Shown here piece after piece: positions 34,334 to 51,568 of a stretch of 59,419 nt of DNA (positions within the stretch are counted from its first letter, which is position 1; the number at the start of each line of letters is the position of its first letter). The position numbers were made by a program, and so were the translations under genes. The stretch is from Synergistaceae bacterium (GTDB lineage Bacteria > Synergistota > Synergistia > Synergistales > Synergistaceae), in contig JAISZL010000076.1 of the NCBI GenBank assembly GCA_031269245.1, forward strand, positions 1 through 59,419, given 5' to 3'. The notes under the pieces were generated by a model, which was given only the letters and a program-made list of their open reading frames with translations, did not search any database and was not told the origin of the DNA.

Positions 34334-34433
34334 TACCGACTCGCGGTCAACAGGCTGTTTTTGATGCGGCTCTAACGGCTGCCCAGACCAGTTTTAACGC
34401 TTCACCCTTCAGGCATGTGATTTCAAATGGGTA
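34334..34433 (+). repeat. 100-bp repeat, copy 1
   Basis: This exact 100-base unit begins TACCGACTCGCGGTCAACAG and ends in a GGTA terminus. It aligns without gaps to the copies at 34550, 37118 and 40908. The ends are imperfect inverted repeats; the blocks at positions 1-36 and 58-100 are conserved and the middle varies. It begins at the base directly after the argF stop. Confidence 0.9.
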
Positions 34434-34549
34434 TTATAGGCCGAGCTTGAAGGGTTTTATCGGGAGGACGGTTCGAACGACGCCGGGCGCGTGTCAAATG
34501 GCCTGGCGTCATTTGTGGCACGCTCTTTCGGAGGGCCGGCCTCCCCTGA
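34434..34549. other. Palindrome-rich spacer between two 100-bp repeats
   Basis: The 116 bp between repeat copies 1 and 2 contain GACGCCGGGC facing GCCTGGCGTC (one mismatch) and a GGAGG/CCTCC hairpin. I see no gene. With the flanking repeats the whole 34334-34649 block may be a small composite element. Confidence 0.5.
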
Positions 34550-34649
34550 TGCCGATTCGCGGTCAACAGGCTGTTTTTGATGCGGCTCCAACGGCTGCCC
34601 GGACCAGTTTTAACGCTTCACCCTTTAGGCATGTGATTTCAAAGTGGCA
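34550..34649 (+). repeat. 100-bp repeat, copy 2
   Basis: This 100-base unit differs from copy 1 at about eight positions, making it the closest relative within the window. Its ends are TGCC and GGCA instead of TACC and GGTA, so both partners of one terminal pair have changed together. That keeps the terminal pairing intact. Confidence 0.9.
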
Positions 34650-34757
34650 TGAGCTTCGCGGCCGGCGGCAAAACAACTCTGGTCTAAACCGCGTTAATAT
34701 AGTATTATCTTTACTTGATTGTCATCAGCATATCTTCTGATGGAGAGGGGTGCCGCT

Positions 34758-35366
34758 ATGAGGGTCAGGCTTGATGACGTTGAGCTCTCCGCCGACGGCG
34801 ACATAGCGCAAAAGAGCAAGTCCGAGATTTATGACATGGCGCATCGGAGCGCTATCTCCAAAAACAGGGTGATCGTCAACATGTTGGTGGACGGCGAGGC
34901 GATCCAGGATGAGGAGGCTTTTCTCTCCCTCTTCGGGGGAACGGACATCCAGTTTGTCTCGCAGCCGGTGATCGACCTGGTCAGGGAGTCTGTCTCAGAG
35001 GGACAGAGGTACCTCCCTACGCTCACGGCGGGACTGCGGGGGATAGCGACCATGTTCGAGGAGGGCAGGGACCAGGACGCGAAGATATCGTTCTCGCAGG
35101 CCATCGACGGCATCAACTGGCTGGTGAGCGTGTTCGACAGGAGTTGCGGGCTTCTCGGGATAAATTCGAACAGCTTCAGGTCGGGAAACATGACGGACGA
35201 CTTCAGCTATCTGAACAAAACCCTGGAGGAGGTGGCCTCGGCGATGGGTGGAGGCAAGTCGATGCGCATAGCGTACCTGATCCGCGAGCGGATGCTGCCA
35301 GGGATAAACAAGTTCGCGGCTTACTGGTCGGAGGTCGCGGAACAGCTGGACAGCCCTCTTCAATAA
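34758..35366 (+). CDS. Protein of unknown function
   Basis: I do not recognise this 202-residue protein. It is acidic, with no signal peptide or membrane segment, and appears largely helical after residue 70 (for example TAGLRGIATMFEEGRDQDAK and SYLNKTLEEVASAMGGGKSM). The N-terminal 60 residues could form a small beta-rich domain. The ATG at 34758 follows GAGAGGGGTG; the frame is open a little further back. Two repeat copies lie directly upstream and a UPF0104 membrane protein gene follows after 90 bp. Confidence 0.75.
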   Translation: MRVRLDDVELSADGDIAQKSKSEIYDMAHRSAISKNRVIVNMLVDGEAIQDEEAFLSLFGGTDIQFVSQPVIDLVRESVSEGQRYLPTLTAGLRGIATMFEEGRDQDAKISFSQAIDGINWLVSVFDRSCGLLGINSNSFRSGNMTDDFSYLNKTLEEVASAMGGGKSMRIAYLIRERMLPGINKFAAYWSEVAEQLDSPLQ

Positions 35367-35456
35367 ACCGCTTGCCTTAGTCGTTCCAGGTTCAAGCCTG
35401 TCCGCTCTTGTCCCGCTTGAACTGGAGGTAGGATCCGGCGGGAAGGGAGGGCTCTT

Positions 35457-36530
35457 TTGTCTGTAAAAAAAGGCTTGAGCTTATTTTTTCTGTTGAGCGC
35501 CGTCGTGTGCGGCGCAATTTTGTTTTCCAGCGTGGACAGAACATCGTTCGAGATATTCAAGCGCGCTGACCCGCTCAAGCTCGCGTGTTCGGTGTTGCTT
35601 GCGGTTGTGGTGTGGCTTCTCGACGCGCTCAAAATATCCCTGCTCGTCCGAGCGGCTGGGGAGAGGATATCCCCAAAGCTGTCGCTGGAGCTGACGTGGA
35701 TAAACTATTTCGGTGCGGCGATCACGCCGATGCAGAGCGGGGGAGGACCGTTTCAGATGTACGTCATGTACCACAACGGCATCAGCGTCGGGAAGTCGAT
35801 AGCGATAACGATCGCGCGAACGGTCCTGACCATGCTCATTTTGGGGTTCGCCATTCCGTTCGCCCTGATGTTCGCCGACGACATGCCCCAGACGAGCTGG
35901 GGCGTGAAGGGCTTTGTCTTCTACGTTATCGTCTTCGGCCTGGCCGCGTGGCTGTTCATAATATTGAGCCTCGTGCGCCCGAAGATAGTGAAGCGCATCT
36001 GCGGGGGAATCGTCATGAAGCTGAAGCGCGCCGGCCTCCTGAAGCCTGGTCGTGTGGTCAGGCTGCTGAAGCGAGTCAACCACGAAATAGACGCCTACAA
36101 CGAGAACATACGCGCCTTCATGACCACGGGCAGGATGAGTTTCCTCGGCGCGGCCGCCGTTGCGTTCGCCCAGTTGCTGGCTCAGCTCTCCGTCATGCCC
36201 TGCATGATATGGGCCATGGGTTTCGGCGTCAAGTACTTCGAGTGCGTCCTCATACAGTCCCTCTTCCTCTTTTTGCTCTACTTCGTGCCGACCCCTGGAG
36301 GGAGCGGCGCGGCGGAGGGCGGGGCCGCCCTCGTCTTCAGCATGTTCGTTCCGTGGAGCGCGGCGGGGATGCTGGGGGTCGGGTGGCGCTTCCTGACGGA
36401 GTACACGGGCATATTTATCGGCGCCGTCGTCGCGGCCAGGCTCATAGGGTGGAGGCTGGCTAACCAGATAATGTCAAAGGCGCGGGACGATGGGAGCTTC
36501 GACGGTTCGCCCGGGGACGGCCAGGGTTGA
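35457..36530 (+). CDS. UPF0104 / lysylphosphatidylglycerol synthase-like membrane protein
   Basis: This 357-residue protein has about eight hydrophobic segments and the family core TWINYFGAAITPMQSGGGPFQ and YFVPTPGGSGAAEGGAALVF. Proteins of this group are the membrane part of aminoacyl-phosphatidylglycerol synthases and related flippases; the soluble transferase domain is absent here. The start is TTG after GGGAAGGGAGG. The stop overlaps the next gene. Confidence 0.85.
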   Translation: MSVKKGLSLFFLLSAVVCGAILFSSVDRTSFEIFKRADPLKLACSVLLAVVVWLLDALKISLLVRAAGERISPKLSLELTWINYFGAAITPMQSGGGPFQMYVMYHNGISVGKSIAITIARTVLTMLILGFAIPFALMFADDMPQTSWGVKGFVFYVIVFGLAAWLFIILSLVRPKIVKRICGGIVMKLKRAGLLKPGRVVRLLKRVNHEIDAYNENIRAFMTTGRMSFLGAAAVAFAQLLAQLSVMPCMIWAMGFGVKYFECVLIQSLFLFLLYFVPTPGGSGAAEGGAALVFSMFVPWSAAGMLGVGWRFLTEYTGIFIGAVVAARLIGWRLANQIMSKARDDGSFDGSPGDGQG

Positions 36531-37093
36531 GGGGCGCGATTTTCAAATACAGGGGTCTCCTGTGGGGAATATTCGCCGCTTTGGTCTTTGTCGTCCCCGC
36601 GCGGCCGAGCCTTATCAGGATGGCGCTGGCGGCTCCGCTCGTCCTGGCGGGGCAGCTCTTGCGCTTTTGGGCCGCCGGGGTCATCCCCAAGTACAGGACC
36701 CTCACGCTGGACGCGCCGGCGTTGGTGACGCGCGGGCCTTACGCGTGGATCCGCAACCCGCTCTACGCGGGCAACGCGCTGCTTGGGTGCGGATGGTCGC
36801 TTATGGTGGGGTGGGCGCTAGTGCCCGCCTTCGCCGCGGTCTACGCCGTCATCTACTCGCTCGTGATAATTCCCTACGAGGAGAGATTTTTGCTGGCGCG
36901 CTTCGGGGACGAGTACCTGAGCTACAAGCTCGCCACCCCGAGCATGGTGCCCGGATTCTCCAATTTCGCGTCGCGTGCCGCCCGCGGTAGCGAAGGGTTT
37001 GGCGCGCGAGAGTCCTGGTCCATGGAGCGGCACTCGCTGCGCATGAATTTGCTGGTCACGGCCTTGATCCTGGCCCGGCTCTATCTGATGTAG
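36527..37093 (+). CDS. Isoprenylcysteine/phospholipid methyltransferase-like membrane protein
   Basis: The 188-residue protein has about four hydrophobic segments and the PEMT/ICMT-type SAM-binding region VTRGPYAWIRNPLYAGN (about residues 66-82), followed by IPYEERFLLARFGDEYLSYK. Substrates of bacterial relatives are mostly unknown; lipid methylation is an inference supported by the coupled UPF0104 gene. The TTG start lies inside the preceding stop codon region. Confidence 0.8.
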   Translation: MRGAIFKYRGLLWGIFAALVFVVPARPSLIRMALAAPLVLAGQLLRFWAAGVIPKYRTLTLDAPALVTRGPYAWIRNPLYAGNALLGCGWSLMVGWALVPAFAAVYAVIYSLVIIPYEERFLLARFGDEYLSYKLATPSMVPGFSNFASRAARGSEGFGARESWSMERHSLRMNLLVTALILARLYLM

Positions 37094-37117
37094 CTGCCTT
37101 TGTGAAACGCTGATTTA

Positions 37118-37217
37118 TACCGATTCGCGATCAACAGGCCGTTTTCGATGCGGCCGAAGCGGTCCTCCAAACCTGTTTTAACGCTTCACCCTTTAGGCAT
37201 GTGATTCCAAATTGGTA
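37118..37217 (+). repeat. 100-bp repeat, copy 3
   Basis: This 100-base unit runs from TACCGATTCGCGATCAACAG to ATTGGTA, between two convergent genes. Here AACAGG (near position 16) can pair with CCTGTT (near position 55), and GAAGCG with CGCTTC, giving extra internal stems. It is followed immediately by a second partial stretch (TTAACGCTTCACCCTTTAG, to about 37236) that repeats an internal block of the same element. Confidence 0.9.
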
Positions 37218-37235
37218 TTAACGCTTCACCCTTTA

Positions 37236-37284
37236 GCCTTGGGAGGGCGGTCCCGCCGCGCGCGCGGGGCCGCCCTCCCAAGGC
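37236..37284. terminator. Strong hairpin after malic-enzyme-like gene
   Basis: A perfect 15-bp inverted repeat (37236-37250 and 37270-37284, arm GCCTTGGGAGGGCGG) with a GC-rich 19-base loop lies five bases beyond the stop of the minus-strand gene. It sits between convergent genes, so it is probably a bidirectional transcription barrier. No T-tract follows on either side, so classical Rho-independent termination is uncertain. Confidence 0.6.
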
Positions 37285-37289
37285 CCTCG

Positions 37290-38534
37290 CTAAATGTGCT
37301 CGATATCCCCGAACAGCCTGTACCACGTCTCCTGATATATCTTTCCTCCCGGCGGGCTGAGCGACGCCACGCCGTCGCGTATCGCCGCCTGACCGACCGC
37401 CTCGGCTATCCGAGGCGTGGTCTCGCTGCCGAAGAACTGGGGGCAGATGCGGTCGGGCGAGAGGTGCCGCCTGTCGACCATGTTCGCCAGCGCGTCGGCG
37501 GCGGCGAGTAGCATGGAGTCGGTGAGTTTTTTGGCCCTCACGTCGAACGCGCCCCTCACGATGCCCGGGAAGGCGTGGATGTTCAGCATCGCGTTCGGGT
37601 TTTCGACTATCCCCGACGCGTATATGTACGCCCCGGCCTCCTTGGCGTCCGCCGCCGCTATCTCGGGCTCCGGGAACGCCAGCGCGAGCACGACGGGTTT
37701 TTTGTTCATCCTTCTGATCTGCTCCTGAGACACGGTGTTCCCCCTCGAAAGTCCCACCAGTATGTCGGCCCCTTCTATCGCCTGGTCCAGCCCGCCACTC
37801 AGGTTCCTGGGGTTCGTCCTCATCGCGAGATCGGACTGGATGGGGTCCATGTTGGGGTTCGAATCGCGGAGTATCCCGTCGACGTTCAGCGTGACGATGT
37901 CGCAGGCCCCGGCGGTTAGCAGGAGCTCAGTGGCGGCGATACCGGCGGCGCCGGCGCCCATCACGACGATGCGGGCCTCCTCGATGGTTATGTCGAGAAG
38001 TTTGAGGGAGTTCCTCACAGCGGAGAGTATTATCACGGCTGAACCCTGTTGGTCATCGCAGAATACCGGTATGTCGAGCGAGTCCGCGAGCTCCCTCACG
38101 ACGTAAAACGTGGCTGGGCTGCCCACGTCCTCTATGTTTATCCCGCCGACCGTGGGCGCGATCATCCTGCAGAAGGTCGTTATCTCCTCCGTGGTCGCCG
38201 CGTCGATCGCCATTGGGATCGCGTTTACGTCGCCCATCTGTTTTAGCAGAAGCGCCTTGCCCTCCAGCACCGGGAGGCAGGCGCCAGGCCCCACGTTGCC
38301 CGTGCCCAGGACGGCGCCTCCGTTGCCTACCTCCGCCAGGCGGTTGGACTTGCCGGTGTAGTCGTATGCCGCGCTTGGGTCATTTTTTATCTCCTCGGAC
38401 GCGATGATGCTGCCCGGCGCGTAGGCCAGCCCCAGCTGGCGCTCGTTTCTGATGTTGACGGTTGGCATCGTCTGCACCTTCCCGCGCGCTTTTCTGTGAA
38501 ACTCCAGAACCTCTTCCCTCTCCAGCCCATTCAT
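37290..38534 (-). CDS. Divergent malic-enzyme-like oxidoreductase
   Basis: This 414-residue protein aligns along its whole length with bacterial malic enzymes, which convert malate to pyruvate and CO2 with NAD(P). The Tyr-containing YDYTGKSN and Lys-containing GPGACLPVLEGKALLLK motifs, the INIEDV acidic site and the MGAGAAGIAATELLL nucleotide fold are present. Several normally invariant motifs are altered: FHDDQHGTA appears as FCDDQQGSA, DGTAVLGLGD as GNGGAVLGTG, and ANP as AFP. It may have a shifted substrate. Cofactor preference is not clear. Confidence 0.8.
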   Translation of the reverse strand: MNGLEREEVLEFHRKARGKVQTMPTVNIRNERQLGLAYAPGSIIASEEIKNDPSAAYDYTGKSNRLAEVGNGGAVLGTGNVGPGACLPVLEGKALLLKQMGDVNAIPMAIDAATTEEITTFCRMIAPTVGGINIEDVGSPATFYVVRELADSLDIPVFCDDQQGSAVIILSAVRNSLKLLDITIEEARIVVMGAGAAGIAATELLLTAGACDIVTLNVDGILRDSNPNMDPIQSDLAMRTNPRNLSGGLDQAIEGADILVGLSRGNTVSQEQIRRMNKKPVVLALAFPEPEIAAADAKEAGAYIYASGIVENPNAMLNIHAFPGIVRGAFDVRAKKLTDSMLLAAADALANMVDRRHLSPDRICPQFFGSETTPRIAEAVGQAAIRDGVASLSPPGGKIYQETWYRLFGDIEHI

Positions 38535-38555
38535 GCGCGTATTCCCCTCCCCTTG

Positions 38556-38581
38556 TATTCGCGTTTGATTTCAAAGCGGTA
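38556..38581 (+). repeat. Miniature derivative of the 100-bp repeat
   Basis: This 26-base stretch joins a 5' TATTCGCG directly to the 3' block TTTGATTTCAAAGCGGTA, as if the centre of the 100-bp unit were deleted. It overlaps the 3' end of the MBL hydrolase gene and supplies that gene's TGA on the minus strand. Confidence 0.55.
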
Positions 38582-39386
38582 TAAGCCGCGGCAGTTCGTC
38601 TATGTCCACGGTCATCCCGTCAGTGGCGGCGACGGCCCTGGTCCAGTTGGTCGATATGCGGTCCGCTAGCCGCTCCGGCCCCATGTCGAGTAGCATGCCG
38701 CCCATGTGGGTCAGTATCGCGAGGCGGGGGCGCAGTACCTGGAGCAGCGACTTTACGTCCGCCGCCGACATGTGGTCGAGCCTTGGAACCGGCAGCGGCA
38801 GCGTCGTGTTTATCACGAGCATCCGGCACTCCGCGTATCGCTCTGGAAAGTGCGGCTGCGCCATCGTGTCGCTTATGACACCCCACGTCGGGAGCCCGTC
38901 CTTCCTGAAGACCAGCCCGTAGCACTCCACCCCGTGATGTTTGTGTATGACAGATTCGACCATCATCCCGGGGACTATCTCCGTGATTTTGCGATCGCTG
39001 TGAAAGTGCGTGTTTTTTATCCTGTCGGCGAAGTATTTCATCAGCGCGGCGTCCTCCCCTGACGCGCTGTCGCGCGGCAGGAGGATGTTCCCCTTTTTCG
39101 CGCGCGACCTTAGCGTCATCCCCTCGGCCAGCGCGTTTACGTCGGAGCTGTGGTCTATATGCTTGTGGGTGAGTATGAGGGTGTTTATGTCCGTGGCCGC
39201 TAAGGGCGGCGCTGCCGCGCATATGCCCACGAGGCTTCCGGGTCCGGGGTCGATCACGCCCCTGCTTCCTCCGTAGGAGAACCAAATCCCCCCGGACGCC
39301 CTCCTCTGCGAGAGCATTATGAAACGAGTGCCGGCGGTGCCAAGAAAACGAATGAAGTTGAGGGGATATCCCGCGTCGCCCTGCAA
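38571..39386 (-). CDS. MBL-fold metallo-hydrolase
   Basis: This 271-residue protein has the metallo-beta-lactamase fold signature THKHIDHSSD (the HxHxDH motif) near residues 73-82. Further metal ligands are probably the histidine in KHHGVECYG and the aspartate in GVISDT. The TTG start follows GGGAGGTC about eight bases upstream. Substrates of this family vary widely (nucleic acids, lactones, phosphonates), so no specific function is assigned. Confidence 0.82.
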   Translation of the reverse strand: MQGDAGYPLNFIRFLGTAGTRFIMLSQRRASGGIWFSYGGSRGVIDPGPGSLVGICAAAPPLAATDINTLILTHKHIDHSSDVNALAEGMTLRSRAKKGNILLPRDSASGEDAALMKYFADRIKNTHFHSDRKITEIVPGMMVESVIHKHHGVECYGLVFRKDGLPTWGVISDTMAQPHFPERYAECRMLVINTTLPLPVPRLDHMSAADVKSLLQVLRPRLAILTHMGGMLLDMGPERLADRISTNWTRAVAATDGMTVDIDELPRLIPL

Positions 39387-39510
39387 AAAAAGACCTCCCA
39401 GCCGCCTGCGTCTTGCCGCCGCTGGGTCTTGCGCGCGCGGCGGTTCGAGTGCTATTATATTCCCTTCTGTGCCGAGATCAAACTGGGATGAACGAATTTT
39501 AAATGGAATT

Positions 39511-39540
39511 TTGGCAAATTGCCGTCAAATGTGGTATGCT
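39511..39540 (+). promoter_or_regulatory. Putative promoter overlapping a diverged repeat
   Basis: TTGGCA (39511-39516) and TATGCT (39535-39540) are spaced by 18 bases, upstream of the gene at 39672. The -10 box overlaps the first bases of the diverged repeat copy at 39537, so the transcript would begin inside the repeat. Confidence 0.5.
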
Positions 39541-39635
39541 CATTCGCGGTCAATCAAGGCGATCTGTAAAAAGGCTGATTTATCGTTAGCGTTACCCTGT
39601 TTTCTTAAAAAGGGGCATGTGAGTGAGCTTTGGCA
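39537..39635 (+). repeat. Diverged 99-bp copy of the repeat family
   Basis: This stretch keeps the CATTCGCGGTCAA start, a CCTGTTTT block, GGCATGTGA and a TTTGGCA end in the same order and spacing as the 100-bp units. Length is 99 bases and the ends are TGCT and GGCA, which can still pair with one wobble. A separate 10-bp inverted repeat (GCTGATTTAT / ATAAATCAGC at 39574-39583 and 39635-39644), followed by five T residues, could act as a leader terminator. Confidence 0.65.
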
Positions 39636-39671
39636 TAAATCAGCGTTTTTGCGCGCAAGGAGGTGCGAAGA

Positions 39672-40199
39672 ATGAGTGATTCTCGAGATTTATGGATGGT
39701 GGGAGATGTTCTTGACGCCATGTCCGGTTCAACTGTCCCCGGCTATGTCATCAGGATCATGGATGAGGTCGAGGCATGGCTTGCGTCCGCGGTGTCCGAG
39801 GAGTACATGATGGACCCGGCGGACGTGACGGGCGCCGGCGAGCGAAATCTCTCAGCGGATCTGGAGTATCTCTTCAATCAGCTCGAGTGGGCCGGGGCGC
39901 ACGCGGATATTTTGCCCGTCCTTAAAGGAAGCGTTCGTCACGAGGACGCCGTGATACTCTCGGTCGGTCCGATAATACTCGACGAGGGGCTTCGCATGAT
40001 GGTGGATCACGCGGCGATATTCGCGCGCGGTTCGTGCCGCAGGGTGTGGCTGATCTCCGACACCTGGGTGATAGGTGACGTGCTCTCGTACATGCCTCAC
40101 TTGAGGGTTCTGCGCGAGGGGGGGGTCCAGGTTCATTTCATGCTGGTGACGCCGTGGGGCCACTCTGAGATTCCGTGGAGCCTCGGTGCGAAAAAATAA
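39672..40199 (+). CDS. Protein of unknown function
   Basis: I do not recognise this 175-residue protein. It has no signal peptide or clear membrane segment and is acidic. The C-terminal half alternates hydrophobic strands and helices (DAVILSVGPIILDEGLRMM, RRVWLISDTWVIGDVLSYMP, GGVQVHFMLVTPWGH), like a Rossmann-type alpha/beta fold. The ATG at 39672 has AAGGAGGTG upstream, a strong site. It has its own promoter and a repeat-derived leader, suggesting separate regulation. Confidence 0.75.
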   Translation: MSDSRDLWMVGDVLDAMSGSTVPGYVIRIMDEVEAWLASAVSEEYMMDPADVTGAGERNLSADLEYLFNQLEWAGAHADILPVLKGSVRHEDAVILSVGPIILDEGLRMMVDHAAIFARGSCRRVWLISDTWVIGDVLSYMPHLRVLREGGVQVHFMLVTPWGHSEIPWSLGAKK

Positions 40200-40262
40200 A
40201 AATCCTGACCGCGCTCACTCCGGCACTGATGATTCAGAGCCCGAGTGAGCGCGGCCCGCGGG

Positions 40263-40886
40263 CTATCCCTTCGAGGGATCCCGGCTTCCCGGCTTCACGA
40301 TCGGCACGCCGCCGCGGCACAGCTCGCAGTCGCGCTCGTCCCATGACGCTATGTCCACGGCGAGCAGCGGGATGAACTCGACCCCGAAGTCGACGGCGCC
40401 GCCGGATCGGTCCACCATGGTTCCGACGCCCGCCACGTCCGCGCCCATGTCCTGAAGGAGTCCGATGACCTCCTTGACCGAGCCTCCGGTCGTCACCACG
40501 TCCTCCACCACGAGCACGCGCTCGCCCGGCTCGACCTTGAACCCGCGCCGGAGTGTCATGGCGCCGTTCTCGCGCTCCGCGAAGATGCCGCGGGCGCCTA
40601 GCGCGCGCGCCGTCTCGTAGGCCATGATTATCCCCCCGAGCGCCGGCCCGGCGACCGCGTCGACGCGACGGCCGCGGGCGCCCAGTTTCTCCGCGAACGC
40701 ATCGGCCAATCGCCCGCACAGCTCCGCGCTCTCATCCGGGTGCTCGAACAGCTTCGCGCACTGCATGTACCTGTCGCTGTGACGCCCGGACGTCAGCCTG
40801 AAGTGCCCGGTCCGAAGCACCCCCAGCCGTTTCAATATCTCCAAAGTCCCCTCGTTCGCGGTGGACTTGCCGTCGTTAGTTCTCAT
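40263..40886 (-). CDS. pyrE: Orotate phosphoribosyltransferase
   Basis: PyrE joins orotate and PRPP to make OMP. The 207-residue protein has the PRPP-binding motif VLVVEDVVTTGGSVKE and the LTSGRHSDRYMQCAKLFEHP orotate side, plus the GPALGGIIMAYETARALG loop. It lies downstream of pyrD on the same strand, but a 183-bp gap with a 100-bp repeat separates them. Confidence 0.95.
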   Translation of the reverse strand: MRTNDGKSTANEGTLEILKRLGVLRTGHFRLTSGRHSDRYMQCAKLFEHPDESAELCGRLADAFAEKLGARGRRVDAVAGPALGGIIMAYETARALGARGIFAERENGAMTLRRGFKVEPGERVLVVEDVVTTGGSVKEVIGLLQDMGADVAGVGTMVDRSGGAVDFGVEFIPLLAVDIASWDERDCELCRGGVPIVKPGSRDPSKG

Positions 40887-40907
40887 GCCAGCAATACCTC
40901 CTTATAC

Positions 40908-41007
40908 TACCAATTCGCGGTCAATAGGTTGTTTTCGATGCGGTTTTTGCTATTATCCAAACCTGTTTTAACGCTTCACCCTTCAGGCCTTTGATTTCAA
41001 ATTGGTA
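40908..41007 (+). repeat. 100-bp repeat, copy 4
   Basis: This unit runs from TACCAATTCGCGGTCAATAG to CAAATTGGTA and lies between pyrD and pyrE. Read in the same orientation as the other copies it is on the plus strand, opposite to the flanking genes. The internal AATAGG can pair with CCTGTT through a G-U pair where copy 3 has a Watson-Crick pair. The terminal pairing is almost complete. Confidence 0.9.
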
Positions 41008-48318: not shown

Positions 48319-48356
48319 TGCCAATTCGCGATCAATAGTTTGATCTCGAATTGGTA
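48319..48356 (+). repeat. 38-bp miniature derivative of the repeat
   Basis: This near-perfect hairpin reads TGCCAATTCGCGATCAA, loop TAGT, TTGATCTCGAATTGGTA. The arms match the two ends of the 100-bp unit with the centre deleted. Only one mismatch and one G-T pair occur in a 17-bp stem. It lies 28 bases before the metK start codon. Confidence 0.8.
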
Positions 48357-51534: not shown

Positions 51535-51568
51535 TTCACCCTTCAGGTCTTTGATTTCAAATTGATGT
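51535..51568 (+). repeat. Truncated 3' half of the 100-bp repeat
   Basis: Just after the flgN stop there is TTCACCCTTCAGGTCTTTGA followed by TTTCAAATTGATG, corresponding to positions from about 68 to the end of the 100-bp unit. The 5' part is missing and the terminal GGTA is degenerate. Confidence 0.6.

Follow-up and report, generated by a model that had tools for sequence, protein, structure and literature searches.

RUP, Correia, ERIC and Nezha elements use TA targets of the IS630/Tc1-mariner type. They are short and intergenic, have imperfect inverted ends and are mobilised in trans, with a length of ~107 bp in the case of pneumococcal RUP (review PMC10969869). A target of three bases is described for the IS1031 group, which produces a TNA duplication, including TGA, and has ends of the type GAACCTGTC/GAG..., those of its member ISLrh being GAACCTGTCTAGTATCT (PMC12016507). 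In Porphyromonas, the ends of the MITEs BrickBuilt and MITEPgRS resemble those of IS5-family elements (PMC4596501). Finally, the 147 MITEs reported for Anabaena sp. 90 are type II MITEs, short inverted-repeat elements that are mostly intergenic and have no IS with matching ends in that genome (PMC3542288).

The repeat analysed here belongs to the same size class as RUP, Correia, ERIC and Nezha and has the same lifestyle, but its ends differ and it duplicates TNA. Instead of the TA duplication typical of IS630/Tc1-type MITEs (RUP, Correia, Nezha), we found a 3-bp unit with a matching middle base. The TNA 3-bp duplication is shared with the IS1031 subgroup of IS5 (e.g., ISLrh), yet the ends of the repeat are TACCAATTcGcgATCAA and thus not of the GAACCTGTC/GAG... 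type. BrickBuilt and MITEPgRS are set apart by their ends (GAGACCTTTGCA or ACGTCA...), by internal tandem repeats and by inconsistent target-site duplications. The likeness to the Anabaena sp. 90 elements lies in the short inverted-repeat structure, the mostly intergenic location and the lack of a matching IS.

With a probability of about 90%, we interpret the repeat as a MITE, in other words a non-autonomous DNA transposon of ~100 bp, moved in trans by a DDE transposase with a 3-bp TNA target. It apparently represents a new, unnamed family of type II (orphan) MITEs without known partner. A literature search found no description of any MITEs in Synergistetes/Synergistota, and the statement of an earlier note on this DNA that the repeat has no name stands, given that neither an Rfam match nor a published description was found.

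Units and derivatives in the window

The window, i.e., the whole stretch of 59,419 nucleotides that was analysed, corresponds to a single contig out of the 98 that make up a draft genome of 2.34 Mb. The earlier note had recognized four intergenic, 100-base units in it that align without gaps, with conserved flanks, a variable middle (~37-57) and imperfect inverted ends TACC...GGTA. All coordinates were reproduced exactly (Table 1), the mean column identity of the alignment is 90%, the variable middle was confirmed and the ends are present in all four units. An HMM built from the four units scores each of them with 97-109 bits, whereas no match in 20 Markov-shuffled windows exceeds 10.4 bits. 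Two units are located between argF and the next gene, one between convergent genes and one between pyrD and pyrE. The accompanying remark that no target duplication is visible is contradicted by exact 3-bp duplications at 34550 (TGA/TGA) and 37118 (TTA/TTA), and an ends-only element and two right-end remnants had been overlooked.

Table 1. Copies, derivatives and remnants of the putative MITE family in the window.
Feature	Position	Strand	Description
Putative MITE, copy 1	34334..34433	+	100 bp; directly 3' of argF stop codon TGA; flanks TGA/TTA (2/3 equal; decayed pair)
Putative MITE, copy 2	34550..34649	+	100 bp; TSD TGA/TGA exact; 92% identity to copy 1
Putative MITE, copy 3	37118..37217	+	100 bp; TSD TTA/TTA exact
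Partial second copy of internal block (TTAACGCTTCACCCTTTAG)	37215..37244	+	directly after copy 3
Right-end remnant	38561..38581	+	then TAA; weak match
Putative MITE, copy 4	40908..41007	+	100 bp; pyrD-pyrE junction, antisense to operon; TTA-(tac)-element-TTA
38-bp ends-only derivative	48319..48356	+	~20 bp left end and ~18 bp right end; TSD TAA/TAA; upstream of metK
Right-end remnant	51535..51567	+	then TGA

The insertion of copy 4 is lineage-specific: only the genome studied here carries an element at the pyrD-pyrE junction. In the eight congeners that have both genes on one contig, the genes are adjacent, with at most ~70 bases between them, and the element is lacking; since these congeners are ~68-76% identical in PyrE, the comparison shows lineage-specific presence rather than an exact empty site.

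A second dispersed repeat family of ~105-120 bp, with the ends AAAACGCTGATTWA...TWAATCAGCGTTTT, was observed as well. It occurs in the window at 39566-39653 and further at L020:1724-1829, L045:1471-1575, L296:1162, L053:139 and L023:453, with 14 sites in 0.3 Mb (some being the two ends of one element) versus none for the reversed control. Despite the different ends, its internal block ACCCTTYAGGC is common to the 100-bp family. Copy 3 of the latter adjoins an end of the second-family type (AAACGCTGATTTA, directly followed by TACC).

The family and its target sites in the host genome

The covariance-model search that the earlier note had suggested for this and related genomes yielded many further copies in the own genome and a patchy occurrence in relatives. 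Built from 31 copies, the model gives 117 matches at E<=1 in the own genome, most of them spanning all 100 positions. The reservation that further copies might be lacking elsewhere in the genome has thereby been removed, the family comprising ~110 copies. When three mismatches at most are allowed, the pattern TACCAATTCGCGATCA of the ends occurs at 173 sites versus 7 for the reversed control. The sequence quoted for the 100-bp family in this genome is TTTGATTTCAAATTGGTA; the terminal inverted repeats (TACCAATT...) are imperfect and ~17 bp long, and 51 of the 68 measured copies have a length of 99 or 100 bp. Mean identity amounts to 87% between the copies and their majority sequence and to 81% among the copies themselves, so most of them are old. 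The outermost bases are no better conserved than the internal blocks at positions ~23-31 and ~51-76, and this conservation suggests that the blocks may be candidate subterminal binding sites. It also counts against the MITE reading, as conserved internal blocks are not required of a purely end-driven element.

The flanks were compared for 68 near-full-length copies of the own genome by setting the three bases before each element against the three bases after it. They are equal in 34 copies, whereas shuffled right flanks agree in 16.2 on average and in 27 at most (2000 shuffles); with four bases, not a single equal pair occurs in the same 68 copies. Both flanks read TNA in 41 copies, 34 of which also have the same middle base on either side (null expectation 17.6, maximum 27 of 10000). 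When the flank frames are shifted outward by 1, 2 or 3 bases, the signal is lost and only 1-3 agreements are left. The 3-bp TNA match, its dependence on the frame and the absence of any match at 4 bp thus establish a 3-bp TNA target-site duplication, and the claim of a missing duplication fails genome-wide as well. About half of the copies have no exact duplication, which may reflect decay or other processes. Among these 41 copies, TGA predominates with 26 cases, whereas the complementary TCA accounts for 4, which suggests that the element favours one orientation when inserting at TGA. Among the left flanks that read TGA or TAA, 10 of 33 end a frame of at least 130 codons, versus 24 of 163 nearby TGA/TAA triplets, a difference which hints that stop codons may be favoured as insertion sites.

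Some arrangements of the ends deserve separate mention. At L057, L058 and L130, head-to-tail MITEs or ends share one TNA (GGTATGATACC), as if the duplicated site beside an end had served a second time as target. Solo left ends directly precede an apparent ribosome-binding site and start codon at L044:1799, L047:1699 and L051:1776, and are possibly remnants taken over as leaders.

Distribution in Synergistales and other phyla

Matches are present in 15 of 53 genomes of the same family, all Synergistales genomes used being drafts, and they are very unevenly spread: under strict filters the own genome (G000) has 77, G034 has 63, G037 has 25 and ten congeners have 0-3. A scan of 151 genomes of the order with the right-end pattern revealed one further rich genome, G127 from another family (42 sites versus 0 for the reversed control), and almost nothing in the rest. 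The copies in G127 have a length of 99 bp or ~153 bp; they are near-identical and their TNA duplication is intact in 24 of 29, thus pointing to a recent burst. The cores of the Synergistales elements, among them those of a second subfamily that the own genome carries, are homologous to one another, with 56-69% identity over the inner 60 bases in the correct orientation, a level reached by no shuffle. They consequently form one old family of constant length, and the notion of unrelated Synergistales cores sharing one length was dropped. Most of the named records that show such right ends belong to MAGs of Synergistaceae (isolates Nc350, Po218, Cd354, Gsp477, Roe453 and Lab288), whose names suggest that they may be termite-gut series.

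The same scan also matched Nostoc, Desmonostoc, Okeania, Anabaena and one Bacteroidales MAG. Elements with paired terminal inverted repeats and ends TACCAATTTGAAA... have equal TNA flanks there in 10 of 17 pairs and in 2 of 2, and the paired ends are mostly spaced by ~91-106 and 159-224 bp from each other. In Nostoc, the core that was tested is unrelated to the Synergistales cores. The shared ends across phyla reflect either one transposase lineage or convergence. We regard it as a tentative and rather improbable idea that the elements of Synergistales, Nostocales/Okeania and Bacteroidales constitute one cross-phylum class of orphan MITEs that share the ends TACCAATTTGaaa..., a TNA duplication and a preference for lengths of around 100 bp, served by one undescribed transposase lineage whose synapsis would select the element length. 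In Okeania G156 (e.g., L207, L209, L211), ~45 copies of the cyanobacterial end TACCAATTTGAAAAAAGAATG were seen; the ends are often paired, and their spacings of ~104 and ~190-215 bp give the impression of nesting. Single matches in Shewanella, an alphaproteobacterium, Helarchaeota and others were judged to be due to chance. Scans of IMG/VR for the repeat ends gave nothing or single matches, and BLAST searches of phages and plasmids gave nothing useful.

Proposed mechanism and competing explanations

In support of the guess that the units are a non-autonomous element, the repeat combines terminal inverted repeats, a short length of 100 bp without transposase gene, a duplication of fixed length (34/68 copies in the own genome, 24/29 in G127), a high copy number with insertion polymorphism (~110 copies; pyrD-pyrE, where the insertion is lineage-specific), a patchy distribution and ends-only derivatives. 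As the simplest account, we propose that a DDE transposase would act in trans on the paired ends and cut at TNA with a stagger of three bases. Its action on the ends is an inferred step, and so is the IS1031/IS5 type to which the TNA duplication points; the enzyme would now be lost or unassembled in the own genome. The family has probably spread by bursts of copying, after which the copies decayed, and insertions were probably tolerated for the most part in intergenic positions.

An autonomous partner whose ends match those of the repeat, as required for type I but not for type II MITEs, was not found, which counts against the proposed reading: none accompanies the ~22 orphan ends examined in the own genome, nor does one lie between the ends at ~40 loci in G127 and at 38 loci in cyanobacteria and Bacteroidales. 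Transposases of PF01609 (nine genomes), PF07592 (seven) and PF13586 (nine) never lie between TACCAATT ends, although absence is not proven by draft genomes. The own genome also contains decayed fragments of PF13586 (IS5-type) transposases, but their ends, AGACAGGCTC, are unlike those of the repeat. Fragments of an ISAzo13-family transposase (PF07592) were noticed at G000:C2:7-456 and G000:C4:435-575 (L273, L275), one of them at a contig end, and their flanks carry no MITE ends. An open reading frame between two such ends in Nostoc (L229) was set aside, being not transposase-like and reading, by eye, like a flavin-dependent monooxygenase.

Three other explanations were weighed against a MITE. 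The earlier note had also considered a structured RNA, in which case the unit would be transcribed, fold as a hairpin and act as a small RNA or mRNA element. The ends do pair, and on both strands the fold of the consensus is better than that of shuffled sequences (z -4.4 and -3.8), but the inverted ends alone account for this good fold, and the full-length copies of the window, taken as DNA, fold little better than shuffles. The two hallmarks of a structured RNA family, compensatory base changes and a covariance-model match, are both lacking: for two structures and 77 distinct copies, neither double-sided pair changes nor paired cells clearly exceed those with shuffled partners, and Rfam gives no match even at E<=5. 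We consequently deem an RNA element very improbable. A REP/BIME-type or other palindromic repeat, whose spread without target-site duplication would be due to recombination or to a transposase of the Y1 (REP-associated) kind, would fit the high copy number, the intergenic location and the palindromic ends. REP-type elements are not known to make a target-site duplication, and the significant 3-bp TNA duplication, nearly universal in young copies, as well as the long non-palindromic core of the 100-bp unit, leaves very little room for such an origin. Equally little credit is given to the idea that the units are decayed remains of some larger, autonomous insertion sequence, produced by repeated internal deletions and not replicating as a family: the common subterminal sequence and the existence of ends-only and 60-bp versions would agree with it, but lengths of mostly 99-100 bp, homologous cores across genera, the young homogeneous set of G127 that was amplified as ~100-bp units, and the lack of any large version do not.

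As a MITE, the family occupies roughly 0.5% of the genome, given about 110 copies of 100 bp in 2.34 Mb, and at least one junction within a biosynthetic operon has received an insertion. With TNA as its target, the element could insert at TGA/TAA stop codons and at the same time regenerate them, so that insertion may be cheap. As these ends recur in three phyla and no transposase was found with them, they provide a search target, i.e., the enzyme recognising TACCAATTTG ends.
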